A DNA stretch of 64,000 nucleotides, taken from NCBI GenBank assembly GCA_022340465.1, contig JAJDNW010000003.1, forward strand, positions 1 through 64,000, written 5' to 3'. Source of the DNA: Deltaproteobacteria bacterium. GTDB taxonomy: Bacteria; Desulfobacterota; Desulfobacteria; Desulfobacterales; B30-G6. Shown here piece by piece: positions 1,604 to 40,764 of this stretch. Each line of letters starts with the position of its first letter. Position 1 is the stretch's first letter. The position numbers were made by a program, and so were the translations under genes. Under the pieces are notes generated by a model. That model made no database searches. It was not told where the DNA came from and saw nothing but the letters and a program-made list of their open reading frames with translations.

Positions 1604-3670
1604 TTAACTTCCTGCTTTCTCGATTCTCACCGGCACCGCTTTCAACAGAGGGAAGCCGCTGATGGGGTCATTGACCATGTCCATGGTCGTAAAATTGATC
1701 CGCCATTCTTCCCAGCCATGATACATTTCGACGACGCCTTTTCGAAGCTCCCCCGCCTGAACGATTTTGGCCGGAACCAACAGCGCGCCTATTTTAGAGA
1801 CAATGCGCACCTGATCGCCGTTTTCGATGCCCAAATCGGACGCGTCTTCGGGGTGGATCTCCACTTCGGCGAGCGGGTGGACCCTGCGAAAGTGTTTAAG
1901 GTTCTGATGCCGCGAATGGTAAAGCAGGGTTTTGCGGGCGCCTGTGGTCAGCAGGAGCGGGTAGTTTTTGGAGGGGTGGCGCAGGTGATAGGGCCGCACA
2001 TATTCGGGAATACCGGCATGGCCTTTTTCCTGAAGGTAGGCGGAGACAAATTCTATTTTACCGGACGGTGTGGGCAGGGGGCGGGACAGGTGCTTTTTAA
2101 AGGTCAGGGGGCGGTACTGAATGCCTTCCGGATGGTTCTGGAGCTCTTCCAGGGAGATGCCCGAAGGTTCCAGGATATGGGCGTTCACCCGGGTTTCATC
2201 CTCCCAGGGAAAATACCGCTCCCCGAAGCCCAGACGGAAGGCCAGGTCCCTCCAGAGAGTGTATTCATCCTCGATGCCCGGTATTTGGGCGACCTTTCTG
2301 GTCAGATAGACGCGTTGGTATTTGGGATCGATGTGCACTTCCGACCGTTCCAGGAACGTCGCTGCCGGCAGGATGTAGTGGGCCAGCTGGGCGGTTTTGG
2401 TCATGAAAAGGTCGTTGACCACCAGCAGGTCCAGACGTTTCAGGGCGCTTTCCACCTTGGTGGTGTTGGGGTTGGTCACTGCCGGATTGGCGCCGGTCAG
2501 AATGAGGCCTTTCAGCGGATATTTTCCGTGCCCGAGCATGGCATCCATGGCCGTCATGGTGTGGCACTCCCTGCGCAGTTCATAGAGGATGGGAAAGCGG
2601 TCCTTCCCGATAGGCATTTCATGGTCAAGGGGCTTTTCATCGTACAGGGTGAGCCGGTTTCTGGGCATCTCCTCGGGCCAGATGAGACCGCAGGGGATGT
2701 CCAAAGCTCCGGTGAGACAGGCCAGAATGGCCAGGGCGCGGGCGTTGTTCACGCCGTTGTCGTGGTGTTCCAAGCCGGCCCCCATGTAAAGGCTGATTTT
2801 GGGGCGGGTGTCGATGACCAGGTTACCGATGCGTTCGACCACATCGGCATAGACGCCGGTTTCACGCTCCACCAGGTCGGGTGTGAATTTCTGGGCGTAT
2901 CGGGCAATGGCTTCAAACCCGGTGCTGTATGTCTCGACCAACTCGTGGTCGTAGGCTCCGGCATTGATGAGGATTCGGATCAGTCCCCAGGCCAGGGCGC
3001 CGTCGGTGCCGGGAATAGGCTGGGCAAAAACATCGGCATAGCAGGCGATGGGGTTGAGCCGCGGGTCGATCATCACCAGTTTGGCGCCCCTGGCCCTGGC
3101 ATCGGTAAACTCACCCATAAATGGTGTGTGGCACACCGGCGGATTGGTGCCGAACAGCAGAATCAGGTCCGCCTCGGCATAATATGGGAAGGGATTCCAG
3201 AAGCCGACGACCAGGTGATGCCCGAGAAAACGGCCGTTGTAACAGGCCGAGTCATTGGAAAAGTAGTTGGGTGTGCCGAAGGCGTGGGCAAATCTTCGGA
3301 CGTATTCTTCCTGCTGCAGAAAACCGACGGCCTCGCCTTTCCATACCCCCATGCTGCGGGCGCCGAAACGATTCTTGATCTGCAGGGTTTTTGCGGCGAT
3401 TTCATCCAGGGCCCGTTCCCGGTCGATGGGGGCAAATGATCCGTCGGGCTGCCGCTTCAAGGGCTTCAGGAGGCGCTTGGGATGATAAAACATGTCCAGG
3501 GCCGCCTTTCCGCGGGGGCACATTTTGCCCTTGTTGACAGGGTTGCCTTCCATGGGACGCACGTCCACCAGTTCCCCTTTTTCGACATGAAGGACGATGC
3601 TGCAGCGGTTGCTGCACATTCTGCAGAGGGTCGGAAGGGTCCCTTTTTCGATCACGGCGCTGTGGGTCAC
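1604..3670 (-). CDS. Molybdopterin (Mo/W-bisPGD) oxidoreductase, catalytic subunit
   Basis: This 688-residue member of the DMSO-reductase superfamily starts with a 4Fe-4S motif (CRMCSNRC followed by a later MCPRG) in the usual N-terminal place. The molybdopterin domains follow, then a C-terminal dinucleotide-binding domain ending in a family-like DPISGFP segment. The candidate metal ligand is a cysteine in the segment NDSACYNGR. There is no Tat signal, so the enzyme is probably cytoplasmic. It starts with GTG and overlaps the stop of the ferredoxin gene by 4 bp, so the two are translationally coupled partners. The overall form recalls acetylene hydratase, transhydroxylase and thiosulfate-reductase-like members, and the reaction cannot be assigned. 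Its place behind hutU-hutH suggests a redox step on an imidazole-derived intermediate, which is an inference. Confidence 0.88.
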   Translation of the reverse strand: MTHSAVIEKGTLPTLCRMCSNRCSIVLHVEKGELVDVRPMEGNPVNKGKMCPRGKAALDMFYHPKRLLKPLKRQPDGSFAPIDRERALDEIAAKTLQIKNRFGARSMGVWKGEAVGFLQQEEYVRRFAHAFGTPNYFSNDSACYNGRFLGHHLVVGFWNPFPYYAEADLILLFGTNPPVCHTPFMGEFTDARARGAKLVMIDPRLNPIACYADVFAQPIPGTDGALAWGLIRILINAGAYDHELVETYSTGFEAIARYAQKFTPDLVERETGVYADVVERIGNLVIDTRPKISLYMGAGLEHHDNGVNNARALAILACLTGALDIPCGLIWPEEMPRNRLTLYDEKPLDHEMPIGKDRFPILYELRRECHTMTAMDAMLGHGKYPLKGLILTGANPAVTNPNTTKVESALKRLDLLVVNDLFMTKTAQLAHYILPAATFLERSEVHIDPKYQRVYLTRKVAQIPGIEDEYTLWRDLAFRLGFGERYFPWEDETRVNAHILEPSGISLEELQNHPEGIQYRPLTFKKHLSRPLPTPSGKIEFVSAYLQEKGHAGIPEYVRPYHLRHPSKNYPLLLTTGARKTLLYHSRHQNLKHFRRVHPLAEVEIHPEDASDLGIENGDQVRIVSKIGALLVPAKIVQAGELRKGVVEMYHGWEEWRINFTTMDMVNDPISGFPLLKAVPVRIEKAGS

Positions 3671-4158
3671 GGCAGGGCATCCCCATCGTCGGGAATCGCG
3701 CGAAGCCCCAGGTGCACCTCGGGATGGTTCTTCCTGCGTTCCGCAATTGATTGCAGACTGTCAAAATGGAGGGCCCCGGCCATGCACACCTGAACACACC
3801 TGGGATCGCCCCCGCAGAGGTCGCACTTGGTGGCCCGGCGGGAAACGGTATCCAGATCCATATATCCGAAGGGACAGGCGACGGTGCACATGCCACAGGC
3901 AATACACACGCTGCGGTCGACGAGGACGGCCGACGTCAGCGGATCGCGGGACAGCGCATCCACCGGGCACACGGCCAGGCAAAGGGCGTTGGCACACTGC
4001 AGACAGGTGCCGGCGAAGATGCGTCGTTGCTGCATATCCACACTGACAAAGATATTGGCCGTTTCGCCGGCGTGCCGTTCGCTTCGATGAAACCGACAGG
4101 CCTGCTCACAGTTCAAGCAGGCAATGCACCTGTCGAGGTCTACGGTTACAATTTTCAT
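3667..4158 (-). CDS. Four-cluster ferredoxin subunit (DmsB/PsrB type)
   Basis: This 163-residue protein has four cysteine groups of the 4Fe-4S type: CIACLNCEQAC, CLQCANALCLAVC, CIACGMCTVAC, and CDLCGGDPRC with VC. This matches the electron-transfer subunits that accompany bis-PGD oxidoreductases. It has neither a signal peptide nor a membrane anchor, and no anchor subunit follows, so it probably passes electrons in the cytoplasm to or from a soluble partner. It starts 34 bp after the hutH stop and overlaps the oxidoreductase gene by 4 bp. No strong ribosome site is visible before its ATG, consistent with read-through translation from the hut messenger. Confidence 0.9.
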   Translation of the reverse strand: MKIVTVDLDRCIACLNCEQACRFHRSERHAGETANIFVSVDMQQRRIFAGTCLQCANALCLAVCPVDALSRDPLTSAVLVDRSVCIACGMCTVACPFGYMDLDTVSRRATKCDLCGGDPRCVQVCMAGALHFDSLQSIAERRKNHPEVHLGLRAIPDDGDALP

Positions 4159-4192: not shown

Positions 4193-5752
4193 CTACCTAT
4201 TGAAAAACGATACAAGCTCGAGGTTGCCCACGGCTTTTTCCACCGTCTCGATGATTTCCCCGGTGCGGATCAGGGCAACCATTTTATCGATGTCCTGCCC
4301 CAGTTCGCGGTCTTTGTCAAGATAAGACACGTGTTCCCGGATGATCCGGTAGGCTTCCCGGGTTCCTCTGCCCCAGACGAGTTTTTTCTTTTCCGTCAGG
4401 AGGTCGTAGGCCTGGGCCGCGCAGAGCATTTCTACGGCAATGACATGCTCGACATTGTCCAGGATTTCCCGGCACTGCCTGATGGCGATGGTGCCCATGC
4501 TGACGTGGTCCTCTTTGTTGGCGGAGGTGGGGATGGAGTCCACGCAGGCGGGATGGGCCAGCACTTTGTTTTCCGAAACCAGCGCTGCAGCGGTGTACTG
4601 GGCGATCATAAATCCGGAGTTGAGACCGCCGTTTTTGACGAGGAAGGCCGGCAGTTCGCTCAGTTGCGGATTGACCATGCGCTCGGTGCGCCGTTCGGAC
4701 ACATTGCCGAGTTCGGCGATGCCCATGGAGAGGTAGTCGGCCGCCATGGCGATGGGCTGTCCGTGAAAGTTGCCTCCCAGGCGGATTTCCCGTGTGTCGG
4801 CAAAAACCAGGGGGTTGGTGGTGGTGGCATTGATTTCGATGTCCACAACATGGCGGGCATGCACGACCGCATCCTTGCTGGCGCCGTGGATCTGGGGAGA
4901 GCATCGCAGGGTATAGGCGTCCTGCACACGGGCACACCCCGCGTGGGAGAGGATAATTTCGCTTTCAGCGGTCAGTCGCAGCAGGTTGTCGGCCGAGGCC
5001 ACCTGGCCGGGGTGCGGGCGGATCTCATGGATGCGCGGATCGAACTCCGAGTTGCTGCCCATGAGCACTTCCAGGCTCATGGCACAGGCGATATCGGCCA
5101 GTTTGGCCAGGCGGATGGCATCATGCACCACCAGGCTGGCAATCCCGGTCATCACCTGGGTGCCGTTGATCAGGGCCAGGCCTTCACCGGCAGCCAGATC
5201 CAGCGGTTCCAGGCCGATGCTTGCCAATGCCTTTGCGCCGTCCATGCGCTCATCACCATGAAAGGCTTCCCCTTTGCCGAGGAGGACCAGCCCCAGGTGG
5301 GCCATGGGCGCCAGGTCGCCGCTGGCTCCCACGGATCCCTTTTCCGGGACCACGGGCGTCACGTCATCATTTAAGAAAGCCATCAGGTATTGCAGGGTTT
5401 TCAAGGAGCAGCCCGAATACCCCATGAACAGGTCGTGGAGGCGCACGGCCATGACGGCCCTCACCACATCCTGCGGCAGGGGTGCTCCGATGCCGGCGGC
5501 GTGGCTCATAATGACCTTGTGCTGCAGCCGGCGCGTGTCGGATGCGGAAATAGGGACATTGCACAAGGCGCCGAATCCGGTGGTGATGCCGTAGATCGCC
5601 TTCTTTTCCCTGATCCACCCGTCGATCAGCCGGCGGGTACGCTCAACGCGCTGCCCCCCTTTGGAAGAGGCTTTCACCGGGCATCCGAAGCGGGCAATGG
5701 CGACGACGTCGTCGAGGGTCAGCTTTTGCTTGTCGATGATGACGGGTTTCAT
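4193..5752 (-). CDS. hutH: Histidine ammonia-lyase
   Basis: This 519-residue aromatic amino-acid lyase would convert L-histidine to urocanate and ammonia. The MIO cofactor triad Ala-Ser-Gly is at residues 143-145, in GSVGASGDLAP. Other active-site residues of true histidine lyases are in place: Tyr54 in YGITTGFG, His84 in SHAAG, Asn196 in LINGTQ, the QDAYTLRC segment, GNFHG, and Glu in SANKEDHVSMG. The ATG at 5752 is chosen over an upstream in-frame ATG at 5800 because TTTGGGGTGTC precedes it and the homology begins there. It lies 160 bp after hutU and leads into the ferredoxin and molybdoenzyme genes. Ergothionase, a relative that releases trimethylamine, is less likely because the usual lyase residues are kept, but it is not excluded. 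Confidence 0.93.
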   Translation of the reverse strand: MKPVIIDKQKLTLDDVVAIARFGCPVKASSKGGQRVERTRRLIDGWIREKKAIYGITTGFGALCNVPISASDTRRLQHKVIMSHAAGIGAPLPQDVVRAVMAVRLHDLFMGYSGCSLKTLQYLMAFLNDDVTPVVPEKGSVGASGDLAPMAHLGLVLLGKGEAFHGDERMDGAKALASIGLEPLDLAAGEGLALINGTQVMTGIASLVVHDAIRLAKLADIACAMSLEVLMGSNSEFDPRIHEIRPHPGQVASADNLLRLTAESEIILSHAGCARVQDAYTLRCSPQIHGASKDAVVHARHVVDIEINATTTNPLVFADTREIRLGGNFHGQPIAMAADYLSMGIAELGNVSERRTERMVNPQLSELPAFLVKNGGLNSGFMIAQYTAAALVSENKVLAHPACVDSIPTSANKEDHVSMGTIAIRQCREILDNVEHVIAVEMLCAAQAYDLLTEKKKLVWGRGTREAYRIIREHVSYLDKDRELGQDIDKMVALIRTGEIIETVEKAVGNLELVSFFNR

Positions 5753-5914
5753 ATGACACCCCAAATTTTCTTTGACCAGAATCCGGCGGGCACAGGCCAT
5801 GCCTCGGTTTGATATGGTGTTTTGAAAAATGAACCCGCCACCCGCTTAGGGCATACGGAGCCTTATTCGGACAAACACTATAACCGACCTCTGTCTTTTT
5901 TCAATGTTCTGCGC

Positions 5915-7945
5915 TCATTTCCTGTTAAAGCTTTCATCCACCAGGCGTTCGACCAGATCGTCCCGTGCAACAAAAGGGACGGTGATGTGGCCCACCCCCC
6001 GGTTCGACCGGTTGAAAGCCTTGCTGACTTCCATGGCATTGGCGTTCCTGGCCCAGCTACGCCGGGCCACGCCGCCCATAACATCCCAGGAGATGGCGGA
6101 TCGGATGGTGTCGTCCACCCGCTGGCTGCCGTCCAGCACCAGACCGAAACCGCCGTTGATGGCGTTGCCGATTCCCGTACCGCCGCCGTTGTGCAGCGCC
6201 ACCATGGACATCCCCCTCGCGCAGTTGCCGGCAAAACAGTGGGTGGCCATGTCGGCCATGACATTGCTGCCGTCCCTGATGTTGGCAGTTTCACGGAAAG
6301 GGGCGTCCGTCCCGCCCGGATCATGGTGGTCTCTTCCGATCATGATGGGCCCCACGTCGCCCCTTCTCACCATTGCGTTGAATTTCAGGGCGATGTTGAT
6401 TCTCCCTTCGGCATCCTGGTAGAGGATGCGCGCCTGGGTTCCCACAACCAGGCGGTTCTTCTCGGCATCCCGGATCCAGACCCAGTTGTCGCGGTCCTGA
6501 AATCTGCGGTCGGGATCGATGCACGCCAGGGCGGCCTTGTCGGTCTTGACGAGATCGTCGTGTCTGCCGCTCAGGCATACCCAGCGAAAAGGGCCGTAGC
6601 CGAAGTCAAAGATGCGGGGCCCCATGATGTCCTCGAAGTAAGACGGGAAGATGAAGCCGTCTTTTTCATCCACACCGTTTTTGGAGATGCGGGTGACGCC
6701 GGCATCGAAGACGGCTTTGAGGAAGGCATTGCCGTAATCGAAAAAGAAGGCGCCCCGTTCTGTCAGGGTTTCGATCAGGTCGATATGGCGGCACAGGCTT
6801 TTATCCACCAGCTTGCAGAAGGTGTCACGGTCTTCAGCCAACAGCCGCGTTCTTTCTTCGAAAGAGATGCCCTGGGGGCAGTATCCCCCATGGTGGGCGA
6901 CATGGCAGGAGGTCTGGTCCGATAGAAGGTCGATCTTTTCGTTGTTGTCCACGGCGTAGGCTAAAAGGTCGACGATGTTGCCGTGAAAGGCGATGGATGC
7001 GGGACGGTCTGACCGCAATGCCTTGCGGGCCGTGGCAAACGCTTCGGCAAGGTCTGTGGTAACGTGGCCGACCCAACCCTGGGAATGACGTGTCTGAATT
7101 CTGGACGCATCCACTTCGGCGATGATGGAAACGGCGCCGGCAATTTCCGCAGCCTTGGGCTGTGCCCCGCTCATCCCCCCCAAGCCGGAAGAAACGAACA
7201 GTCGCCCCTTGAGGCTGGCTTCTCTGCCCAGGCCGAACCTGATTCTACCGGCATTCAACAGGGTGTTGTAGGTACCGTGGACGATTCCCTGGGGGCCGAT
7301 GTACATCCATCCGCCGGCGGTCATCTGCCCATAGCTGGCCACGCCCATCTGGGCGGCGACTTCCCAGTCGTCGAGGTTGTCATAAATGCCCACCATGAGG
7401 CCGTTGGTAATGATCACCCGCGGGTTGGACGGGCGCGATTCGAAGAGGCCCAAGGGATGCCCGGAAGCCATCACCAGGGTCTGGTCTTCGGTCATTGCTT
7501 CCAGGTACATCTTTATCAGGCGATACTGCATCCAGTTCTGACAAACGCTGCCGGTTTCGCCGTAGGTGACCAACTCGTAGGGGTAGAGGGCCACGTCGAA
7601 ATCCAGATTGTTGTCGATCATTACCTGGAAGGCCTTGGCGGCCAGACACCGGCCCCGGTACTGGTCGATGGGTTTGGCCTTGACCGGGCCGGCGGGCCGG
7701 AAGCGGTAACCGTAGACCCTTCCCCGGGTGGTCAGTTCCTTCATAAATTCAGGGGCTAATTTTTCGTGCAGGTGGGGGGGGATGTACCGCAGGGCGTTCT
7801 TGAGCGCCGTCTCCGTTTGGGCCTGGCTCAGGCGGAATCCGCGATCCGGCGCCCGGCGGATGCCCGGGGCAAATTCGGGGTGCTCGGGCAGGACAGGAGC
7901 GAGTTGGAACCGGGTCACGTTATCGTCGTCGGCTGGCATGGTCAT
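5915..7945 (-). CDS. hutU: Urocanate hydratase
   Basis: This 676-residue urocanase uses tightly bound NAD to hydrate urocanate to imidazolonepropionate, the second step of histidine breakdown. Family signatures are clear: ETGSVCQNW, the SGLGGMSGAQ segment in the NAD-binding core, GHVTTDL, DQTSCHVAHHGGY, and the C-terminal ALHNGGGTGIGNAINGG. It belongs to the longer urocanase type of about 670 residues. The ATG at 7945 is preferred because GGAGGTG lies just upstream; the in-frame extension to 8047 has no family similarity. It is the first gene of the minus-strand block, with a HutC-type operator about 215 bp upstream. No imidazolonepropionase (hutI) or formiminoglutamate enzyme is present in the window, so the pathway is completed elsewhere or differently. 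Confidence 0.95.
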   Translation of the reverse strand: MTMPADDDNVTRFQLAPVLPEHPEFAPGIRRAPDRGFRLSQAQTETALKNALRYIPPHLHEKLAPEFMKELTTRGRVYGYRFRPAGPVKAKPIDQYRGRCLAAKAFQVMIDNNLDFDVALYPYELVTYGETGSVCQNWMQYRLIKMYLEAMTEDQTLVMASGHPLGLFESRPSNPRVIITNGLMVGIYDNLDDWEVAAQMGVASYGQMTAGGWMYIGPQGIVHGTYNTLLNAGRIRFGLGREASLKGRLFVSSGLGGMSGAQPKAAEIAGAVSIIAEVDASRIQTRHSQGWVGHVTTDLAEAFATARKALRSDRPASIAFHGNIVDLLAYAVDNNEKIDLLSDQTSCHVAHHGGYCPQGISFEERTRLLAEDRDTFCKLVDKSLCRHIDLIETLTERGAFFFDYGNAFLKAVFDAGVTRISKNGVDEKDGFIFPSYFEDIMGPRIFDFGYGPFRWVCLSGRHDDLVKTDKAALACIDPDRRFQDRDNWVWIRDAEKNRLVVGTQARILYQDAEGRINIALKFNAMVRRGDVGPIMIGRDHHDPGGTDAPFRETANIRDGSNVMADMATHCFAGNCARGMSMVALHNGGGTGIGNAINGGFGLVLDGSQRVDDTIRSAISWDVMGGVARRSWARNANAMEVSKAFNRSNRGVGHITVPFVARDDLVERLVDESFNRK

Positions 7946-8160
7946 GGGAACACCTCCATCAAGAACCGGTCTGTCTTCGATAATCGTTCGGAGAACGCTG
8001 ACCCCAGGGTTGCAACTGTGGGGTTGATGTGTCCTATACCTACTCAATTTAGGCTATAGTATGATCCTTTTAAAAATTCAATTACAGCCGGCCTTCCGGC
8101 TTCATTTTATGGCGTTATTCCTGCAGCCATAAAAATGATCTTGATCTTGGAACGCCGAGA

Positions 8161-8174
8161 CTTGTATATACAAG
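8161..8174. promoter_or_regulatory. HutC-type operator 1
   Basis: CTTGTATATACAAG is a perfect 14-bp palindrome between the divergent hutU and hutC genes. It matches the TTGTATATACAA core known for HutC operators. A minus-strand TTGACA at 8207-8202 lies just upstream with respect to hutU, so binding here would block that promoter and perhaps hutC itself. An identical core recurs at 9181-9194. Confidence 0.85.
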
Positions 8175-8332: not shown

Positions 8333-9058
8333 ATGGCAAAACGATATCCCAAATATGAACAGATCAAGGACTATGTGGTCAAGGGCATCAAGGCGCGCCA
8401 TTTTACCGAAGCCGTTCCTTCCGAAAATCAGCTGGCCCGGCGGTTCGGCGTCAGCCGCATGACAGCGCGCAAGGCCATTGACGCCCTCGAACGCGAAGGC
8501 TTTGTGGAGCGCAGTCCGGGCAAGGGCACTTTCGTAAAAAAAAGGCAGCATTACACCACCGGTTTTTTCAAGGTGCGGCCGTTTCAAAGGTGGGCCGACG
8601 ATCTCAATGTGGAACTTACCACCGACGTCCTGGAGGCCGGGGTGGTCGAACCGCCGGCGCATGTGGCCGAAAAACTGCAGTCGGACGGTCAGGTGATCAT
8701 CATGCGCCGGTTGTGGTATTTTGATAAAAAACCGGTTCGTTATGAAATCCGCTATCTGCTTCCGGATATTTGTGCCGGGATTCTTTTCGAAGATTTGGAA
8801 AATGCATCGATCCACAGCATTCTCATCAACAAGTACAAGCTGCCCCTGACCCGGATCAGCCAGAGCATGGAGGCGATTGTCCTTTCCAGAGAGACCGCCG
8901 CCCTTTTTCAAGTGGATGCCGGCTATCCGGCATTCCACATCAAGCGCACGACCTACTCTGGCGACGATCCGGTTACCTATGTGGAATACACCATGCGGGG
9001 TGAAATGGCCTTCAGGGACACCTTTTCACCTCAGTTCGACCCAGCGGATTTTTTCTAG
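8333..9058 (+). CDS. hutC: GntR/HutC family transcriptional regulator
   Basis: This 241-residue protein has a GntR winged helix at about residues 5-70 (motifs SENQLARRFGVSRMTARKAI and GKGTFV) and a UTRA effector domain at about 90-235, the architecture of HutC repressors. HutC in other bacteria is released from DNA by urocanate. It is divergent from hutU and flanked on both sides by the same palindromic operator, so it probably represses the hut block, the corrinoid module and perhaps itself. The ATG at 8333 is chosen, with GCGGGTGGCG upstream; the in-frame extension to 8135 would run through the operator and lacks domain similarity. The effector is inferred from family and context, not shown. 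Confidence 0.88.
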   Translation: MAKRYPKYEQIKDYVVKGIKARHFTEAVPSENQLARRFGVSRMTARKAIDALEREGFVERSPGKGTFVKKRQHYTTGFFKVRPFQRWADDLNVELTTDVLEAGVVEPPAHVAEKLQSDGQVIIMRRLWYFDKKPVRYEIRYLLPDICAGILFEDLENASIHSILINKYKLPLTRISQSMEAIVLSRETAALFQVDAGYPAFHIKRTTYSGDDPVTYVEYTMRGEMAFRDTFSPQFDPADFF

Positions 9059-9160: not shown

Positions 9161-9190
9161 TTGACAGGCAAAAGCGTCAACTTGTATATA
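9161..9190 (+). promoter_or_regulatory. Putative sigma-70 promoter of the corrinoid module
   Basis: TTGACA at 9161-9166 is followed after 18 bases by TATATA at 9185-9190. The -10 box lies inside the HutC-type palindrome at 9179-9196, so a bound repressor would occlude RNA polymerase. The corrinoid-protein gene starts 128 bp downstream. Confidence 0.55.
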
Positions 9191-9196
9191 CAAGTT
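9179..9196. promoter_or_regulatory. HutC-type operator 2
   Basis: AACTTGTATATACAAGTT is a perfect 18-bp palindrome with the same 14-bp core as the operator at 8161-8174. It stands between hutC and the corrinoid-protein gene and overlaps the -10 region of a putative promoter. This links the methyltransferase module to the hut regulator. Confidence 0.85.
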
Positions 9197-9317: not shown

Positions 9318-9947
9318 ATGTCGTTGGAGGAATTGAGCAAGCTGGTGGAAGACGGTGAAACCGAGACAGCACAGGAACTGGCAGGGAAACTGCTGGCGGA
9401 TGGTACGGATCCGCTTGAAATGATTGCCGAAATGACCCGGACCATGGCCCATGTGGGGGACCTTTTTTCCAAACTGGAGATTTTTTTACCCGAAATCATG
9501 CTGGCCGGAGAGGCGCTGACCGGTGTGGTCGAAGTCCTGTCCCCCTATCTTGAAGCGGTGGGCGGCCAGGAAGTCAAGGGCAAGATCGTGATCGGTGTGG
9601 TCAAGGGTGACCTGCATGAGATCGGCAAAAACATTGCCAAGCTGATTCTGGAAACCAGCGGCTTCGAGGTCAAGGACCTGGGCTACAATGTCGATCCGCT
9701 TACCTTCATCAAGGAAGCAGAAGCCATGGGTGCCGATGTCATCGGCGCGTCTTCCCTGATGACCACCACCATGCCGCGTCAAAAGGAGATCATCGAGATC
9801 ATGGAAGCCAAAGGAATCAGGGACCGATTCAAGGTCGTTATCGGCGGCGCACCCACCTCCCAAATGTGGGCCGATCAGATCGGCGCGGATCTCTATTGCC
9901 GCGAGGCAAAGGATATACCGGAATTGCTGGTGAATCTACTTCACTAA
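9318..9947 (+). CDS. Corrinoid methyl-carrier protein (MtbC/MttC family)
   Basis: This 209-residue protein has a four-helix cap domain (about residues 1-90) and a B12-binding Rossmann domain. The base-off cobalamin signature is KGDLHEIGKN, where the His would ligate cobalt, followed by GASSLMTTTM and VVIGGAPTS. In methylamine, methanol and betaine systems such proteins carry the methyl group between a substrate-specific methyltransferase and a second methyltransferase. AAAGGAGG precedes the ATG at good spacing. It is the first gene after HutC-type operator 2 and is followed by an MtmB homologue and a UroD-family methyltransferase, which gives a complete three-part methyl-transfer set. Confidence 0.95.
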   Translation: MSLEELSKLVEDGETETAQELAGKLLADGTDPLEMIAEMTRTMAHVGDLFSKLEIFLPEIMLAGEALTGVVEVLSPYLEAVGGQEVKGKIVIGVVKGDLHEIGKNIAKLILETSGFEVKDLGYNVDPLTFIKEAEAMGADVIGASSLMTTTMPRQKEIIEIMEAKGIRDRFKVVIGGAPTSQMWADQIGADLYCREAKDIPELLVNLLH

Positions 9948-10143: not shown

Positions 10144-11526
10144 ATGACCACAGCCTACAGGCACTGGGAAATTCTGGAGCGTTCCCAGACCGGCCCCTTT
10201 ATGGACGAGGATGATTTCCTGCCGCGGCTTTTTACGCCCACGCTGAAAAAGCTCATCAAGAAGTACGAAATCAAGTACGATCCCGCGAACCCCTGCCCGA
10301 CGGATGACGACATGGCCGACCGGATCTGGCAGGCGGCCTGGGATCTGTTCCGGGAGGTGGGCTACTACAACACCGATACCCACCGCATCATCCAGGTCAG
10401 CGACGAGGAAATCCGCGAAGCGCTGTACATGGCCCATGATCAGTACTGGGTGGGTGCGGGCAAGGATGCCGTGTTGTGGAAACACCGCCAGGTTGAGGAC
10501 ACGGATCCACCCTTTTGCATCATGAGCCCGGACATCACCTGCGACGAGCAGTACCACCAGTCCATCTGCATGGCCTATCTCAAAGAACCGCTCCTCGACG
10601 GTATCTGCGGGCCGATTCTGGAGGAGACGTTTGGTCACCTGATTTCCTCTTCGGGTCCTACGGAAATCAGCGGATGCATTCAACATATCTACAACCAAAA
10701 AATGGCGGCAAGGCTGCTGGGTCGTCCCGGAACCTTCATGGTGGCCGTGGGCACCGCCGAGCATGACAGCGGACAGATCGCGGTCTCCAACGATGAGTGG
10801 GGGGTTCAGAAAACAGACGCCCGCCTGGTGGGATCCCTGACCGAATTCAAGACAGCGGACACCTTGTTGAACCGTTCCCTGCACTACGCGCAGTACGGAT
10901 GCTTTACCGGCAACCTGACCGGGGCGATTTACGGCGGATGGTGCGGCGGGTCCGAAGGCACGGCCGTCACCACGGTGGCGTACAGCCTCATCGGTCTGGT
11001 AATCCACGGGGCCGTTTTCAACCAGCACTTTCCCTTTCATCTGAACTACGGCTCCAATACCACCCGCGAGCTGTTGTGGCCCGTTGCCATGGCCGGCCAG
11101 GCTCTGGCCAGAAACAGCCGGCTTTTGCAGACCTCCAACGGGTTCGCCAATGCGGGCCCCATGACGGAGATGCTGTTCAGGGAAACGGCCGTGCACGCCA
11201 TGGTGTCCACGGTAACCGGTTGGCATTTGTGGGAGATGGCTTCTGCACGCAATAAATACAGAAACCGGGCCACGCCCCTGGAAGCGCGCATCGGTATGGA
11301 AGTGGGGCACGCCGTGGCCCGGCAGGGACTTTCCAGGGCCGAAGTGAACGAGATCGCCAACCGGCTCCTGGCCACCTACGAAGACAGTGCAGCGGATGCG
11401 CCCATGGGATCGGAATATCAGGAATGCTACGATGTGGCCAAGGCGGTGCCGACCCAGGAGCACTACGACATGTTCCGCCGGGTGAAGGACGAAATTGCCG
11501 GCATGGGGATCGAATTTCCATTTTAA
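10144..11526 (+). CDS. MtmB-family corrinoid methyltransferase lacking pyrrolysine
   Basis: This 460-residue protein resembles archaeal monomethylamine methyltransferase MtmB (458 residues) along its whole length. Shared segments are TDTHRI near the N-terminus, LGRPG before the active site, an RELLW segment, and QECYDV near the C-terminus. MtmB carries pyrrolysine at position 202, encoded by an in-frame UAG. Here residue 202 is valine (GTG, in FMVAVG) and the frame has no amber codon. It therefore probably demethylates a substrate other than monomethylamine, as non-pyrrolysine MttB homologues do. ACAAGGAGATG precedes the ATG. It is flanked by a corrinoid carrier and a UroD-family methyltransferase, its expected partners. 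Confidence 0.85.
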   Translation: MTTAYRHWEILERSQTGPFMDEDDFLPRLFTPTLKKLIKKYEIKYDPANPCPTDDDMADRIWQAAWDLFREVGYYNTDTHRIIQVSDEEIREALYMAHDQYWVGAGKDAVLWKHRQVEDTDPPFCIMSPDITCDEQYHQSICMAYLKEPLLDGICGPILEETFGHLISSSGPTEISGCIQHIYNQKMAARLLGRPGTFMVAVGTAEHDSGQIAVSNDEWGVQKTDARLVGSLTEFKTADTLLNRSLHYAQYGCFTGNLTGAIYGGWCGGSEGTAVTTVAYSLIGLVIHGAVFNQHFPFHLNYGSNTTRELLWPVAMAGQALARNSRLLQTSNGFANAGPMTEMLFRETAVHAMVSTVTGWHLWEMASARNKYRNRATPLEARIGMEVGHAVARQGLSRAEVNEIANRLLATYEDSAADAPMGSEYQECYDVAKAVPTQEHYDMFRRVKDEIAGMGIEFPF

Positions 11527-11623: not shown

Positions 11624-12658
11624 ATGGCTAAGCAAATGTTGATCGACGCCACCCGCGGAAAAAAAACCGAAAAGGCGCCCTGGTTGCCCTATGCCGGATG
11701 CAACTGCGCCTATTTGATCCAGGAAAAGGCGGACCGGTTTTTCAAGGATGCCGACCTGTTGGCAAAGGGAGTCGTGACGGCCGCCGCCACCTATCATGCA
11801 GACGGCATTCCCCTGTTGTTCGATCTTTCGGTCGAAGCCGAAGCTGTGGGCTGTGAGCTGGAGTTCTGGGAGGACAATGTTCCTTCGGTCAGAACCCATC
11901 CCTGTGAAAAAGAAACGCCCGAGGAACTGGGCATGGGGCTCTTTACCCGGGAGAGTGGACGCTGGCCGGTCATTTTCGAGGCAGCGGCCAAGACCAAGCC
12001 GCAGCTGGACGAAATGGACTGCGCCATGCTCGGCCTGGCAGCGGGCCCCCTGACCCTGGCCTCGCATCTGGCCGGCGTGCGCATCTTCACGGCTGTAAAG
12101 AAAAACAAGGCATTTGCCCATGCGGTTACCGCCTATGCCGGCAGACTGTGCGCCGAGTCAGTCAGGTACTATGCGGAAATGGGGTGCGACATCATCGCCA
12201 TCGTGGACCCGGTAGCCTCCCAGATTCGACCGGAAACCTTTCGGGAATTCGTGACACCCAACTGCCAAGAAGCGATAGCGGCCATTCACGCGGCCGGCAA
12301 GACGTCGACCTTTTTTATCTGCGGCGACTGCACCAAGGTCATCGAAGAGGTCTGTCAGACGGGCACCCATGGCTTTGCCGTCGACGAGCAGATGAACATG
12401 AACTTCATCCGCGACATCGCCATGAAATACAACAAGGGCTTTGGCGGTAATTTGAAACTGACCCTGGCCCTCAGTCTGGGGCTGCTGTCCCCCAGGGAAG
12501 ATGCGCTGGCAAGCCTGGCCGCCGGCGGTACCAGGGGCTACACCTTTGCTCCCGGCTGAGACCTTCCTTTCGATGTTCCGGCGGAACATCTGATTCAGGC
12601 CTACGAAGCCCGGGAGTGGTTTGATGAGCATTATCCGAAGTATCCGGATGTTGGATGA
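11624..12658 (+). CDS. UroD-family corrinoid methyltransferase (MtaA/MtbA-like), probable selenoprotein
   Basis: The conventional frame stops at TGA 12557-12559, but the family continues past this point. Reading through the TGA adds 32 residues, which begin DLPFDVPAEHLIQAYEA, and ends at TGA 12656-12658 for a 344-residue product. The TGA stands at residue 312, where MtaA/MtbA homologues have the last zinc-binding Cys of the HxC...C motif in a PGC-like context (here APG, then TGA). The first Cys is Cys233 in FFICGDC, 79 residues earlier, the family spacing; the usual His two residues before it is Phe231. A perfect 8-bp hairpin starts 12 nt after the TGA. The protein would move methyl groups between the corrinoid carrier and an acceptor such as a folate or thiol. 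Confidence 0.8.
12557..12559 (+). other. Probable selenocysteine (UGA) codon
   Basis: This in-frame TGA replaces the codon of the conserved last zinc-ligand cysteine of a UroD-family methyltransferase. It is followed by family-like coding sequence and a SECIS-like hairpin. A truncation at this point would remove one metal ligand and the C-terminal helix. A sequencing or assembly error, TGC or TGT read as TGA, is the main alternative. Confidence 0.78.
12572..12590 (+). promoter_or_regulatory. Bacterial SECIS-like hairpin
   Basis: GATGTTCC (12572-12579) pairs perfectly with GGAACATC (12583-12590) around the three-base loop GGC. The loop begins 20 nt after the UGA and has G at its first two positions. 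Stem length, loop size, G placement and distance all fit the published model of bacterial selenocysteine insertion elements. The hairpin lies inside the extended coding frame, as bacterial SECIS elements do. Confidence 0.75.
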
Positions 12659-12911: not shown

Positions 12912-13304
12912 ATGAATGACAAAATCAAAATCGATGTATTGACCCTGGACAGTGTGCAGTGTGCGGCCTGCGGCTACATGATGGAGTCCATCGCGGCGCT
13001 GCCGACCGACGTGCAGGCGATGATTGCGTACAGAGAGTGGTCGATCAAGACCAGGGACGGCATCGCCATGTTCACCAGGCTCAAGGGCAAGGTGCTTCCC
13101 ACCATCTGCATCGAGGAGGATCTGGTTTTTCAGAGCATGATTCCCCAGTACGAGGAGTTGATCGATGCCCTGGCCGAAAGAGCGCATTCAGGTGAACAGC
13201 GTGAGCGCATCCTGTCCCTGCGGGACGAGGGTTTTGACTTCGACAACATCAAGTCAAACCTGGACAAGGCCGGTTCCGGGCGGAATTTGCGTACGGGTCG
13301 CTGA
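12912..13304 (+). CDS. Small thioredoxin-fold protein with CAAC motif
   Basis: This 130-residue protein has a CxxC pair (QCAACGYM) near residue 17 and a cis-proline-like LPTICIEE segment near residue 65. Together they suggest a thioredoxin or glutaredoxin-like fold. The C-terminal 30 residues are charged and look less structured. GGAGTGG precedes the ATG. It sits inside the corrinoid methyltransferase module between the UroD-family gene and the CobW-type GTPase. It might keep metal-binding cysteines or the corrinoid carrier reduced, or deliver a metal, but the sequence does not fix a function. Confidence 0.75.
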   Translation: MNDKIKIDVLTLDSVQCAACGYMMESIAALPTDVQAMIAYREWSIKTRDGIAMFTRLKGKVLPTICIEEDLVFQSMIPQYEELIDALAERAHSGEQRERILSLRDEGFDFDNIKSNLDKAGSGRNLRTGR

Positions 13305-13415
13305 GAGATATATTTCGACGCCATTTCAAAGCGGGATGACTTGAAGGCTGCGATGACGGAGAGGCTGCAGCCAACCGCTATAGAAGGTAAGAAAAGCAGA
13401 AGGAGCGGTATTAAC

Positions 13416-14396
13416 ATGGGGGCGACAACCGATGTGTTTCTGATCACCGGTTTTCTGGGAAGCGGCAAGACCACTTTCCTGAACCGGATCATCAAGGCGT
13501 TCCCAAGGGATCGTAGCCTCATGATCCTGATGAACGAATTCGGCGACCTGGGCGTGGACGGGGCTCTGGTGGAAGGGGAGGATCTGGACATGCTGGAGAT
13601 CAGCAGGGGATCGATCTTCTGTGTCTGCGTCAAAACCGATTTCATCAGGGGGCTGGCGGATATCGCCAAAAACAAGCGTCCCGACGTCCTGCTGATCGAA
13701 GCAACCGGCGTGGCCAACCCCACGGACGTGAAAAAGGACCTCGAGCTGTCGATTTTTAAAAACCGGTTTCAGCTCAAGGAGCAGTTCTGCCTTATCGATG
13801 CCGCCAACTTCGAGGATGTCTACGATACCTTCACATCGGTTGAAAAACAGCTGGAAAGCGCCACACTTTTTATCATCAATAAAATCGACGAAGCCGACGC
13901 CGCTGCCGTCGCCAGAGTTCGGGAAATTGTCAGACGGCACCATCCGGAGCCGGCAATCATCGAAACCCGATATGCGGACATCCCCCTGGAAAATTATCTT
14001 TCCACCCGGGACCTTTTGAGCGGTGATCGTCTGCCGGATATTTCCCCGGCGGAACTTGACCGTTTCATTGACGGCCTCATGGCAGCGCCCGGGCTCTCCA
14101 TGATGCCGGCCGATCAATTGGTGTCAAAGACGGTCGCCTGGGCCGGCGGAAGCCGCCAGTCCCTTGCCGAAATGGTTGATAAAATGCCCGCCGGAATTCT
14201 GAGGGCCAAAGGGATTGTTCAGGCCGGCGACGGCGTGTATCTGTTTAACTGCGTGATGGGCAAGAGCCGGTTTGAAAGGGTCGCCGCAAGGACAGGCATG
14301 GCCGCCATCATGAACCGGTTGGTTTTCATCGGAACCCCTGAAGCGATGGAACGACTAGAGAAGGTCGAGTTCAAGGACCTGTTTCAGGAGAAGTAA
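13416..14396 (+). CDS. CobW/COG0523-type GTPase, metal-chaperone family
   Basis: This 326-residue P-loop GTPase has Walker A GFLGSGKTT (residues 12-20), a Walker B-like segment DVLLIEATG, and the specificity motif INKIDEAD. This is the order of the CobW/HypB-related G3E family. The family's usual CxCC metal motif appears as FCVCV, with one Cys fewer. AGAAGGAGCGG precedes the ATG at 13416; an in-frame start at 13341 has no such site. Relatives deliver zinc, cobalt or other metals. Here a role in loading zinc or maintaining the corrinoid enzymes of the same operon is plausible. It lies 22 bp before the MttB homologue. Confidence 0.88.
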   Translation: MGATTDVFLITGFLGSGKTTFLNRIIKAFPRDRSLMILMNEFGDLGVDGALVEGEDLDMLEISRGSIFCVCVKTDFIRGLADIAKNKRPDVLLIEATGVANPTDVKKDLELSIFKNRFQLKEQFCLIDAANFEDVYDTFTSVEKQLESATLFIINKIDEADAAAVARVREIVRRHHPEPAIIETRYADIPLENYLSTRDLLSGDRLPDISPAELDRFIDGLMAAPGLSMMPADQLVSKTVAWAGGSRQSLAEMVDKMPAGILRAKGIVQAGDGVYLFNCVMGKSRFERVAARTGMAAIMNRLVFIGTPEAMERLEKVEFKDLFQEK

Positions 14397-14418: not shown

Positions 14419-15894
14419 ATGGTAACGCCAACAGACGTCACGTCGCAGTGCCTGCCCACCTACAGGATGCTCACCCCGGATCAGATCGAGCATATTCACA
14501 CGGCCACCCTGGAACTGCTGAAAACCGTGGGCGTCAAGGTGATGGCTCCGGAGGCCGTCGCCATGCTGGCCGGCGCCGGCTGCGAGGTAACGTCAGGGAA
14601 TATTGTCAAGATACCCAATCGGCTGGTGGAGGCGTCGATTGCCAGCGCGCCTTCGTGGATTACCATCTACAACCGTCTGGGGAAGGAAGCCATGCATCTG
14701 GGGGGCCGCAAGAGCTATTTCGGTCCGGGCACGGACCTGATCAAGACGTACGACCTGGAAACCGGCGAATTGCGCGCATCGCAGCTTATCGATGTGGCCA
14801 ATGCCGCCCGCGTGGCCGATGCTTTGGAGGAGATCGACTTTCTCGGTTCCTACGCCCTGCCTTTCGATTCCCCCACCAACCTGATGTACATCGACTCCTT
14901 TAAAACCCAACTGGAGAATTCCATCAAACCGATCTTTTACACGGCGGCCGGAGTGGCCGACATTGCCGTGATCAACGCCATGGCGGCGGCAGTAATGGGC
15001 GGAGAGGATGCGTTGAAAGCCAAGCCGATCCACATCCATTACGCCGAGCCGCTGACGCCGCTGACGCATTCCTCCGGTGCCATTCAGAAGCTCTTTTTTT
15101 GTGCCGACAAGGCCGTGCCGGTATGTTACACGCCCGGTATGATGTCCGGGGCCAGCGCACCGGTGACCCTGGCCGGCGCTATTACGGTGGGCAATGCCGA
15201 AGCTTTGAGCGGGATCGTCATGCATCAACTGCGGAAAAAGGGCGCTCCCATTATTTCAGGATTCGGCATGTCCACCCTGGACATGAAGACGTCGGCGTGT
15301 GTCTACGGCTGCCCGGAATATCGCCTGGCCCTGTCGGCCTGTGCGGATCTCTATCACTACTACGGCGTTCCCATGTGGGGCACGGCCGGGGTCAGCGATG
15401 CGCACGCCCCGGATGAACAGGCGGGCGTGGAGTGGTCCATCTCCCTGCTCGCGGCGGGCCTGGACGGGGCCAACCTCGTTCACGACGTCGGCTACATGGG
15501 ACAGGGGCTGGTGGGCTCGCCGGCGGCTCTGGTGATGAATGCCGAGATCATCAGCTACGTGCGCCGCGTCATCGAGGGCTTTGACATCGATGCGGAACAC
15601 ATCGGTATGGACGTGATCCGGGAGGTCGGACCCCAGGGGGCCTATATCGCCACGCCGCAGACCAGGCAGTATTTCAAACAAGAGCACTGGCAGCCGCAGC
15701 TTTTCAACCGTGAAACCCTGGAACCCTGGATAGCCCGGGGAAGGAAAACGTGGGGTGCCAAAGCCGTAGAAAAAGCCAAACAGCTCCTTAAAAACCACCG
15801 TCCGCAAAAGCTGCCCGAAGATGTGCGCAGCACCCTCGATCGGCTGCGTCAAGCGGCCCTCGAAAAACTCGAGGGTGAACACATAGGCGCATAG
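14419..15894 (+). CDS. MttB-superfamily methyltransferase without pyrrolysine
   Basis: This 491-residue protein belongs to the trimethylamine methyltransferase superfamily (MttB/MtgB). It shows the N-terminal SMLTPDQIE-like start, HLGGRKSYFGPGTD, the central PVTLAGAITVGNAE segment and MWGTAGVSD near the active site. The frame has no UAG, so it is one of the non-pyrrolysine members. Known members of that kind demethylate quaternary amines such as glycine betaine, proline betaine or carnitine. GAGGATGATACC precedes the ATG. Together with the MtmB homologue upstream, it gives the module two substrate-specific methyltransferases, as if a multiply methylated amine were demethylated stepwise. The substrate is not known. 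Confidence 0.92.
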   Translation: MVTPTDVTSQCLPTYRMLTPDQIEHIHTATLELLKTVGVKVMAPEAVAMLAGAGCEVTSGNIVKIPNRLVEASIASAPSWITIYNRLGKEAMHLGGRKSYFGPGTDLIKTYDLETGELRASQLIDVANAARVADALEEIDFLGSYALPFDSPTNLMYIDSFKTQLENSIKPIFYTAAGVADIAVINAMAAAVMGGEDALKAKPIHIHYAEPLTPLTHSSGAIQKLFFCADKAVPVCYTPGMMSGASAPVTLAGAITVGNAEALSGIVMHQLRKKGAPIISGFGMSTLDMKTSACVYGCPEYRLALSACADLYHYYGVPMWGTAGVSDAHAPDEQAGVEWSISLLAAGLDGANLVHDVGYMGQGLVGSPAALVMNAEIISYVRRVIEGFDIDAEHIGMDVIREVGPQGAYIATPQTRQYFKQEHWQPQLFNRETLEPWIARGRKTWGAKAVEKAKQLLKNHRPQKLPEDVRSTLDRLRQAALEKLEGEHIGA

Positions 15895-16026: not shown

Positions 16027-18111
16027 TCAGGCTGCTGTTTTCACGCTGGGAAAGGCATCGATATTGGTGTGCGGCAAAAAAAGCGCCGACGTGTATTCAT
16101 CCATGAATCCGCTGTTGCTGGAAAAATCGATATAGGTCATGCTGTTTGAGATATCACGCGCTTCATGCCGGTATTCGTCGCTCAACAGCGCCAAATATGC
16201 GCCGCCGATGGAACTGTTGCCCAGATATTTGAATTTGCTGCGGTCGATGTCCGGCAGCAGTCCGATGGTAACGGCTTTGTCGATATCGAGGTACTGCCCG
16301 AATCCGCCGGAGATCCAGATGCGGTCGACCATGGCAAAATCGAGGCCGGCCTGATTGAGCAGTACCGTAAAGCCGGCATATACAGCCGCCTTGCTCATCA
16401 TGAGGCTGTTGATGTCGGTTTCCGTGAAGATGATGTCCTCGTCCATCTGCGTATCTTGCATAGGGGCAATGATATAGGCTTTCTGATCGTTTTCGCGCTT
16501 CATTCTCGGGTGGCTCTCGTCCAGTTTGAATTTACCATTGGGATCGATGATGCCTTTGAGCAGCATTTCCGAAATCAGGTCGATCATCCCCGATCCGCAA
16601 ATTCCCCTGGCGGGGGCATTTTCGACGGTTTCATAGGATGGCGCACGGGTGTCGGGGTCGATGGTGATTTTTTCGATGGCGCCTTCCTCGGCCCGCATGC
16701 CCCAACGGATGCCGCCCCCCTCGAAGGCCGGGCCTGCCGAGCAGGCCGCCGTCATCAGCCAGTCCCTGTTTCCCAGCACAATTTCGCCGTTGGTTCCGAC
16801 ATCGATGAACAACGTCAGCGGCTCTTCACGGTGAAGGCCGGAATATAGCATTCCTGAAACGATGTCTCCGCCGACGTAGCTGGCGGGACCGGGCATGATG
16901 AAAACCGCGGCAATTGGATCGGCTTTGATGCCGATCTCCCCGGCTTTGAAGAAGGGGAATTCCGAGGCAGTGGGGATGTAAGGTTCCCGGCGGATGTAGC
17001 GCGGTTCGATCTTGAGCAGCAGATGCGTCATGGTGGTGTTGCCGGACAGGACGACATTTTTAATCTGCCGGTAGTCGCTTTCGGCGCTTTCCAGCGCTTC
17101 GCCGATCAGGTTGTTGATGGTGGACAAGACCATGCCGCTGAGCTTGTTGACCCCGTTTTTTTCTGCACAGATAATGCGGTTGATCACGTCGTCCCCGCAG
17201 GCGGCCTGCTTGTTATGGCCTGAGGTGGCGGCCAGAATGGAGCCGTCTCCCATGTCTACCAGGTAGACGACGATTGAGGTGGTGCCGACGTCGACGGCAA
17301 GGCCCAGCGATTTTTCATTGCCGTTGCCGGGAGCGACCTTCAGGATTTCGTTGGAGCATTTTTTTCGAATGACCGTTGCCTTGACCTTCCAATTTTCGTG
17401 GCGCATGGCATTGGAAAGCTCGCGCATGACGTTCAGCCCGACATTCATACGGCTGATATCGCAGCCGGCCTTTTTCAGGCCCCGGTTGAGCCTGTCCAGA
17501 TCACTGACCGAGTCTTCCAGGGTCGGCGGCTGGAGCGTCAAGTTGATCTCTTTGATCATGGGGTCGATTTCCGTGACCAGCCCTTTGAATTTGGCGGACA
17601 ATTCATTCCCGAGACCGGCAACTTTCAGTTTTCGCTCCACCGCTTCGGGCGGAATACTGACGACGACCTCTTCGCCCGGTTTTGCCTGACAAGCCAGTAC
17701 ATATCCTCTTTCCTTTTCCCGGGCCGTGAGAAGGGGGGTGTCTTCCGATTCCACAGTCCCGGATTCCAAAACCAGCTTGCATTTGCCGCAGGCGCCTTTG
17801 CCGTTGCAGGAGGCGTTGATGTGGACATCCGCTTTTTGGGCGGCGTCCAGCAGCGTCGATCCCGGTTCGACCTCAACGGTTGTATCTTGAGGCTGAAAGG
17901 TCACCCGACGGGCAGCTGCCTTCTCCAATGCCGCTTGTTGACGGGCCTCTCTCAGCTTGCGTTTGTGCTCATACCAAATGGGGCAGGCGCTGCGGAATTT
18001 ACAGTAAATATTGGGATCGCGGCATTCGAGACACTCTTCGCAAAGATAGGTGCCGTGTTTGGAGCACATGTAATTGGTTTCACGATCCGGATGATTGATG
18101 CATTTTCCCAT
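16027..18111 (-). CDS. RamA-like reductive activator of corrinoid proteins (ferredoxin-ASKHA ATPase)
   Basis: This 694-residue protein has three parts. The first 45 residues hold a Cys/His-rich zinc-finger-like segment. Residues about 70-155 are a plant-type 2Fe-2S ferredoxin domain with Cys102, Cys108, Cys111 and Cys141. The rest, from about residue 265, is an ASKHA ATPase of the DUF4445 type (LAVDVGTTS, a GNTTMTHL segment, IDVGTNGEIVLG, CGSGMID, and WISGGFGQY). Proteins of this kind use ATP to drive one-electron reduction of oxidised cob(II)amide carriers to the active Co(I) state. It converges on the MttB gene and has AAGGATAAGAA before its ATG. It supplies the repair function of the module; the extra N-terminal finger is unusual. 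Confidence 0.9.
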   Translation of the reverse strand: MGKCINHPDRETNYMCSKHGTYLCEECLECRDPNIYCKFRSACPIWYEHKRKLREARQQAALEKAAARRVTFQPQDTTVEVEPGSTLLDAAQKADVHINASCNGKGACGKCKLVLESGTVESEDTPLLTAREKERGYVLACQAKPGEEVVVSIPPEAVERKLKVAGLGNELSAKFKGLVTEIDPMIKEINLTLQPPTLEDSVSDLDRLNRGLKKAGCDISRMNVGLNVMRELSNAMRHENWKVKATVIRKKCSNEILKVAPGNGNEKSLGLAVDVGTTSIVVYLVDMGDGSILAATSGHNKQAACGDDVINRIICAEKNGVNKLSGMVLSTINNLIGEALESAESDYRQIKNVVLSGNTTMTHLLLKIEPRYIRREPYIPTASEFPFFKAGEIGIKADPIAAVFIMPGPASYVGGDIVSGMLYSGLHREEPLTLFIDVGTNGEIVLGNRDWLMTAACSAGPAFEGGGIRWGMRAEEGAIEKITIDPDTRAPSYETVENAPARGICGSGMIDLISEMLLKGIIDPNGKFKLDESHPRMKRENDQKAYIIAPMQDTQMDEDIIFTETDINSLMMSKAAVYAGFTVLLNQAGLDFAMVDRIWISGGFGQYLDIDKAVTIGLLPDIDRSKFKYLGNSSIGGAYLALLSDEYRHEARDISNSMTYIDFSSNSGFMDEYTSALFLPHTNIDAFPSVKTAA

Positions 18112-40759: not shown

Positions 40760-40764
40760 TATGG

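Follow-up and report, generated by a model that had tools for sequence, protein, structure and literature searches.

Which methylated compound does an MtmB-like methyltransferase without pyrrolysine act on, in a marine sulfate reducer that carries its gene next to those for histidine breakdown? The question is raised by a 64,000 nt stretch of contig JAJDNW010000003.1 from a deltaproteobacterial genome of Desulfobacterales type (assembly GCA_022340465.1), here called the window, in which a first-pass annotation had described a homologue of the monomethylamine methyltransferase MtmB with valine at the pyrrolysine position.

The valine MtmB-like protein and its clade

The ORF at 10144-11526 begins with ATG and encodes 460 amino acids with no internal stop, in agreement with the earlier statement that the gene has no amber codon. 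Its product scores 290 bits against Pfam PF05369 (MtmB; curated cut-off 25 bits), with residues 8-455 covering positions 4-449 of the 450 in the profile, and phmmer aligns residues 8-458 with 10-458 of MtmB 1L2Q (E 1e-52, far beyond chance). The description of a full-length MtmB homologue therefore stands. Pyl202 of MtmB (X in the 1L2Q chain) pairs in the alignment with V200 of the window protein, confirming the valine that had been placed at residue 202 by MtmB numbering. Identity is 28% to MtmB of Methanosarcina barkeri and 32% to bacterial Pyl-MtmB. The AlphaFold2 model (pTM 0.80, mean pLDDT 73.5, low at 201-235 and 246-304) has 1L2Q as its top PDB match (TM 0.82, E 3e-30), with part of the barrel at low confidence. 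Modelling of the active site had been proposed as a check; this model of the whole protein shows the MtmB fold with V200 at the end of a predicted strand (198-200); Pyl202 of MtmB sits on a barrel strand (PMC9842639).

The 4.39-Mb genome has no other PF05369 gene. Among 291 genomes of the host's class, 27 have PF05369 genes, with UAG in only two, so that non-pyrrolysine forms are common in this class. Close relatives of the window protein (74-94% identity) are found in 11 of the 291, and a scan of 84,980 species gave 33 loci with relatives at 73-94% identity, in Desulfobacterota, Spirochaetota and one Chloroflexota MAG. The cluster is also present in cultured Desulfocicer vacuolatum DSM 3385, whose MtmB-like copy is 89% identical. 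No relatives were found on viral contigs.

All 33 aligned clade members have Val at the pyrrolysine position. Additionally, the residues that we take to contact pyrrolysine in MtmB (E229, E259, Q333 and Y335) are L (I in a few), L, N and F across the 33, and the bacterial Pyl-MtmBs L068 and L069 keep E, E, Q and Y. The first-pass emphasis on Val was thus correct as far as Val200 goes but was not the whole story. A quick maximum-likelihood tree places the 32 Val rows in a single group (support 100) on a long stem (length 1.14) and the pyrrolysine MtmBs in a separate one (support 100), so that the phylogeny suggested earlier does divide proteins with UAG from the valine proteins. The sister of the Val group, with support of only 80, is another non-pyrrolysine group that mostly has Asn at this position. 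Members of this Asn clade (L050, L052, L053, L054 and L055) have corrinoid partners.

A degenerate or mis-sequenced pyrrolysine gene is ruled out by the fixation of Val and the loss of the contact residues. The valine MtmB is a subfamily and not a stray mutant. Homology to MtmB would also fit a monomethylamine enzyme, or a degenerate MtmB, but we regard either as extremely unlikely, because pyrrolysine and all four contact residues are replaced in every member, whereas the bacterial Pyl-MtmBs retain them, and because the Val clade is strongly conserved. The protein resembles M. barkeri MtmB (1L2Q/1NTH; PF05369) in full-length homology, size, fold and an adjacent corrinoid gene; it differs in having no UAG or pyrrolysine, in V200 and the replaced contacts, and in belonging to a fully supported clade of its own.

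The host genome encodes tRNA-Pyl and PylS, with further genes read as PylB, PylC and PylD, and a lack of pyrrolysine machinery is thereby ruled out as the cause of the Val. Judged from its genes, the host cell can make pyrrolysine and its valine MtmB-like enzyme does not use it. The pyrrolysine cassette (L185 7124-11765, G000:C9) adjoins genes for corrinoid, MtbA-like and methyltetrahydrofolate-type methyltransferase proteins. Marine Deltaproteobacteria with dual Sec/Pyl decoding are already known (PMC8318568).

Non-pyrrolysine MtmBs had been called much less described than their MttB counterparts, and this needs correction. MtqB of Methanococcoides methylutens Q3c demethylates tetramethylammonium and choline (2026; PMC13044021), and a dichloromethane-induced non-pyrrolysine MtmB of unknown role was reported from strain DCMF in 2022 (PMC9768040). 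An MtmB tree of 1,061 sequences also exists, in which the function of most members is unknown (PMC13044021). Non-pyrrolysine MtmBs are thus numerous, and MtqB is the first and only one with a known function. Like the window protein, it is a homologue of MtmB without pyrrolysine and has a dedicated corrinoid protein, but it is archaeal and CoM-linked and has no reported hut link.

Gene order, histidine breakdown and a shared operator

The features of the locus are given in Table 1. Rightwards run the genes for the HutC-like repressor, corrinoid protein, MtmB-like, MtaA-like, thioredoxin-like, CobW and MttB-family proteins, with the RamA-type gene on the opposite strand; leftwards run those for urocanase, histidine ammonia-lyase, ferredoxin and molybdopterin oxidoreductase. 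The carrier that the first-pass annotation had placed at 9318 is indeed a corrinoid protein. Genes for polar-amino-acid transporters lie beside about 13 clade loci.

Table 1. Features of the methyltransferase and histidine breakdown cluster in the window
Position	Strand	Feature	Basis or remark
1604..3670	-	Molybdopterin oxidoreductase, DMSO-reductase family, Cys at metal-ligand position	Kept in 14 clade loci
3667..4158	-	4Fe-4S ferredoxin-like electron carrier (PadI/AegA-like)	Profiles
4193..5800	-	Histidine ammonia-lyase (hutH)	Intact MIO motif (ASGD)
5915..8047	-	Urocanate hydratase (hutU), long form like T. cruzi-type 6UEK	Likely start near 7945
8161..8174	.	Putative HutC-type operator CTTGTATATACAAG	hutU/gntR divergent promoter region
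8333..9058	+	GntR/UTRA repressor, HutC-like	ORF opens 8135, likely start 8333; kept in 14 loci
9181..9194	.	Second putative HutC-type operator CTTGTATATACAAG	Upstream of corrinoid/MtmB-like operon
9318..9947	+	Cognate corrinoid protein (MtxC-type), GDLHEIGKN cobalamin motif at residue 97	Profiles; synteny in nearly all relatives
10144..11526	+	Non-pyrrolysine MtmB-like methyltransferase, V200 at Pyl202 position	ORF, profile, alignment, tree, model
11624..12658	+	MtaA/URO-D-family methyltransferase, UGA read as selenocysteine (residue 312), predicted	Stop TGA 12656-12658
12557..12559	+	In-frame TGA read as selenocysteine (predicted)	At MtaA C-terminal Cys position
12572..12590	+	SECIS-like hairpin, 8 bp, loop GGC, 12 nt after UGA	Compensatory changes among relatives
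12912..13304	+	Small thioredoxin-like CxxC protein, weak match to HUIPC (seleno)protein family	Kept in 7 loci
13341..14396	+	CobW/G3E GTPase	Profiles
14419..15894	+	Non-pyrrolysine MttB-family methyltransferase	Nearest solved relative glycine betaine MtgB
16027..18111	-	RamA/AcsV-type reductive activator of corrinoid proteins	Profile

The MtmB-like protein shares with the non-pyrrolysine MttB family (MtgB, MtpB and others), one member of which is encoded in the same operon, the property of being a pyrrolysine-free corrinoid methyltransferase, but MttB belongs to COG5598 and has no significant sequence homology to MtmB. The adjacent MttB-like gene is absent from L090, and by comparison with that locus the MtmB-like enzyme alone may suffice without an MttB-like partner. 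A second non-pyrrolysine MttB-family gene, adjoining a sugar-kinase-like gene, is found at 52272-53807 of the window. Shortly 3' of the MtmB-like gene in about nine loci (for example L073 7406-8227 and L082 11371-12174) is a small protein with a weak match to the MetH activation domain, possibly an alternative corrinoid reactivator. The molybdopterin oxidoreductase gene adjoins one for a PadH-like NADH reductase in some relatives; its identification as a formate dehydrogenase was unsupported, as the residue after the Cys is Tyr rather than His and a loop Arg is replaced by Glu (by comparison with HDCR FdhF). The window also encodes a trans-4-hydroxy-L-proline dehydratase and its activase (38399-41715; 1203 bits, cut-off 1100). 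A dehydratase 83% identical to this one adjoins the MtmB-like cluster in L071, and in L088 the cluster has a related glycyl radical enzyme beside it.

Both hutH and hutU are single-copy in the genome and diverge from the methyltransferase operon. The genes for HutI, formiminotransferase-cyclodeaminase (FTCD) and an amino-acid ABC transporter lie together at a separate locus; with HutH and HutU in the cluster, the histidine pathway is therefore complete. Two other assignments were ruled out: an ergothionase-like lyase, because the hutH product has an intact MIO motif and scores above the HutH family cut-off, and a urocanase for methyl- or thio-urocanate, because the hutU product scores 569 bits to 6UEK and far under the cut-offs of the thiourocanate models.

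One or both of hutH and hutU adjoin the MtmB-like cluster in the window, L074, L085 and L089. With kinship uncorrected, hutH is present in 9 of the 11 clade genomes and 132 of the 280 others (P 0.024), and hutU in 9 of the 11 and 113 of the 280 (P 0.008). No hut genes were found within reach of most Desulfobulbaceae clade loci, and none were seen in the Spirochaetota clusters. The Spirochaetota loci have a HisC-type transaminase, IorAB and an ADP-forming acyl-CoA synthetase, either in the operon (L090 and L097) or divergent from it (L095). On its predicted gene functions, the transaminase/IorAB set is a second route for the degradation of histidine or of some other aromatic amino acid.

The best NCBIfam match of the repressor is HutC (TIGR02018) at 132.6 bits, under the cut-off of 220, and the protein is called HutC-like only. 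The exact palindrome TTGTATATACAA has two copies in the 4.39-Mb genome, one at the hutU/gntR promoter and the other before the corrinoid gene. When up to two mismatches are allowed, 0.06 sites are expected in the window; two were found, both without mismatch. The palindrome fits TGTA-N2-TACA, the consensus of Pseudomonas HutC, for which the site has been footprinted (PMC12977541). When one mismatch at most is allowed, L073, L074 and L089 have a match at each of the two promoters, and L070, L075, L076, L085 and L093 have one at a single promoter; control loci (400 kb) gave two matches. This suggests that the methyltransferase operon is apparently under the same genetic switch as histidine breakdown, the HutC-like repressor presumably binding the same operator in both places to control the hut and methyltransferase genes. 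The arrangement resembles the Pseudomonas Hut regulon (HutC, hutHUI) in its HutC-like repressor gene, TGTA-N2-TACA operator, hutH and hutU, but differs in that the operator is common to a corrinoid methyltransferase operon, the urocanase is of the long form and the organism is an anaerobe. A two-mismatch copy of the palindrome is also present just upstream of hutI (L186 9394).

These data bear on whether the hut genes could be bystanders of an MtqB-type demethylase of tetramethylammonium or choline. MtqB is the sole non-pyrrolysine MtmB with a demonstrated function, but the HutC-type operator and the hut synteny extend across several genera and the transporters are for amino acids and not choline, and we consider such an enzyme very unlikely.

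The MtaA-like partner as a candidate selenoprotein

The MtaA-like gene appears to end at 12559 with TGA, which is followed by about 32 conserved codons, a feature on which the first-pass annotation had not remarked. A truncated or frameshifted gene was considered, and was replaced by the UGA reading on the strength of the conserved TGA and downstream codons. The copies at neighbouring loci that are complete there have TGA in the same place in all but L093, which has Cys. Of the 31 full-length homologues in the host's class that are at least 68% identical, 30 carry a single TGA and the remaining one has Cys; no TGA is found in homologues below 40% identity. Past the TGA, third codon positions vary more than the other two. 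The hairpin is paired in 95.5% of cells, with two pairs changed on both sides, compared with 29-59% in slid-partner controls, and its loop is GGC or GTC across relatives. By itself the folding energy does not stand out (z -1.2 and -1.8), and the same bases also code for protein. The host genome contains tRNA-Sec.

The partner resembles the MtaA/MtbA methylcobamide:CoM methyltransferases (4AY7) in being of the URO-D-type family and in lying beside a corrinoid system. The zinc ligands of MtaA are presumably His, Cys and Cys; in the alignment to MtaA 4AY7 the corresponding residues are Phe, Cys and the predicted Sec, so that the partner differs in having Phe for the His and Sec (UGA) for the C-terminal Cys. 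The main text of the 2026 list of prokaryotic selenoproteins (PMC13188914) contains no MtaA/URO-D family, nor does that of earlier selenoprotein surveys. The Sec MtaA-like protein is apparently, and for now provisionally, a new selenoprotein family. Its gene is also present in genomes without the Val clade, for example on a G225 contig that carries a pyrrolysine MtmB, and it may therefore serve more generally as a second methyltransferase. For bacterial methylamine systems, the enzyme in this role has been called uncharacterised (PMC8318568).

The probable substrate

On balance, we favour the reading in which the MtmB-like protein is a corrinoid-dependent methyltransferase for N-methylated histidine, most likely ring-methylated (1- or 3-methylhistidine). 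This would fit the shared operator, the hut synteny, the single-copy hutH and hutU, the hut co-occurrence, the Spirochaete transaminase/IorAB set and the amino-acid transporters. An operon with a histidine operator and histidine-consuming neighbours most simply makes histidine. HutH and transaminases require a free alpha-amine. Gene context cannot discriminate between ring-methyl and alpha-N-methyl histidine. Methylhistidine was among the compounds that the first-pass annotation had listed for assay, and the gene context points that way; as to its proposal of a new N- or O-methyl substrate, an N-methyl compound is probably new but an O-methyl one is without support.

The scheme builds on what was seen directly, namely gene content, homology, the Val clade, the operators and UGA conservation. 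The substrate-specific MtmB-like methyltransferase would take the methyl group from N-methylated histidine and pass it to Co(I) of the corrinoid protein; the MtaA-like partner, apparently Sec-bearing, would then move it to a presumed acceptor leading towards one-carbon metabolism, and the RamA-type protein would reset oxidised cobalt. HutH and HutU, encoded next door, would take up the histidine that is left, and HutI and FTCD, encoded at the separate locus, would continue its breakdown. To our knowledge, the known non-pyrrolysine enzymes of the MtmB and MttB families all act on a quaternary (cationic) nitrogen. Pyrrolysine may be dispensable here because a protonated N-methylimidazole would be a cationic methyl donor with a good neutral leaving group.

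Several points count against methylhistidine. The presence of an MttB-like gene within the operon gives a hint of a quaternary amine, the cluster's molybdenum enzyme is left unexplained, and other aromatic amino acids are also substrates of HisC-type and IorAB enzymes. Additionally, most Desulfobulbaceae loci are without nearby hut genes, the repressor scores under the HutC cut-off, and regulation shared through urocanate need not entail a methylhistidine substrate.

The main rival is hercynine (histidine betaine), because of the MttB-like gene. The MttB-like enzyme would remove the first methyl group and the MtmB-like enzyme a later one, leaving histidine for HutH. The known substrates of non-pyrrolysine MttBs are betaines, an MttB-family gene with MtgB as nearest solved relative is present here and in most Desulfobacterota loci, and hut regulation fits equally well. 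However, three demethylations would be needed, two of them from tertiary and secondary amines, which we know of no non-pyrrolysine enzyme to use, and in the Spirochaete locus L090 the MtmB-like gene adjoins one for a transaminase, with no MttB-like gene there. Hercynine is thus unlikely. Another methylated amino acid, such as hydroxyproline betaine, tryptophan betaine or a methylated thiohistidine (e.g. ovothiol), with the histidine genes as one outlet, seems decidedly unlikely. In its favour are the hydroxyproline dehydratase, which adjoins the cluster in L071 and lies about 23 kb from it in the window, the transaminase/IorAB context, which suits any aromatic amino acid, and the molybdenum enzyme, which could act on sulfur or a ring. 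Against it, histidine and urocanate are the specific substrates of HutH and HutU, whose genes have an operator in common with the methyltransferase operon.

Returning to methylhistidine, we put forward more tentatively an anaerobic pathway for methylated histidine that would combine a pyrrolysine-free MtmB, a Sec MtaA-type enzyme of a family outside the 2026 list and HutC-type coupling, the host cell decoding the 21st amino acid as well as the 22nd. What is new in the valine MtmB is its gene context, the hut link. Our literature search found no report of corrinoid demethylation of methylhistidine or hercynine. As a candidate for the role of second methyltransferase in bacterial methylamine systems, the Sec MtaA-like enzyme would add methyl transfer to the reactions that involve selenocysteine. 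Finally, a bacterial non-pyrrolysine MtmB subfamily gains a concrete and testable class of substrate from an independent line of evidence, the shared operator.
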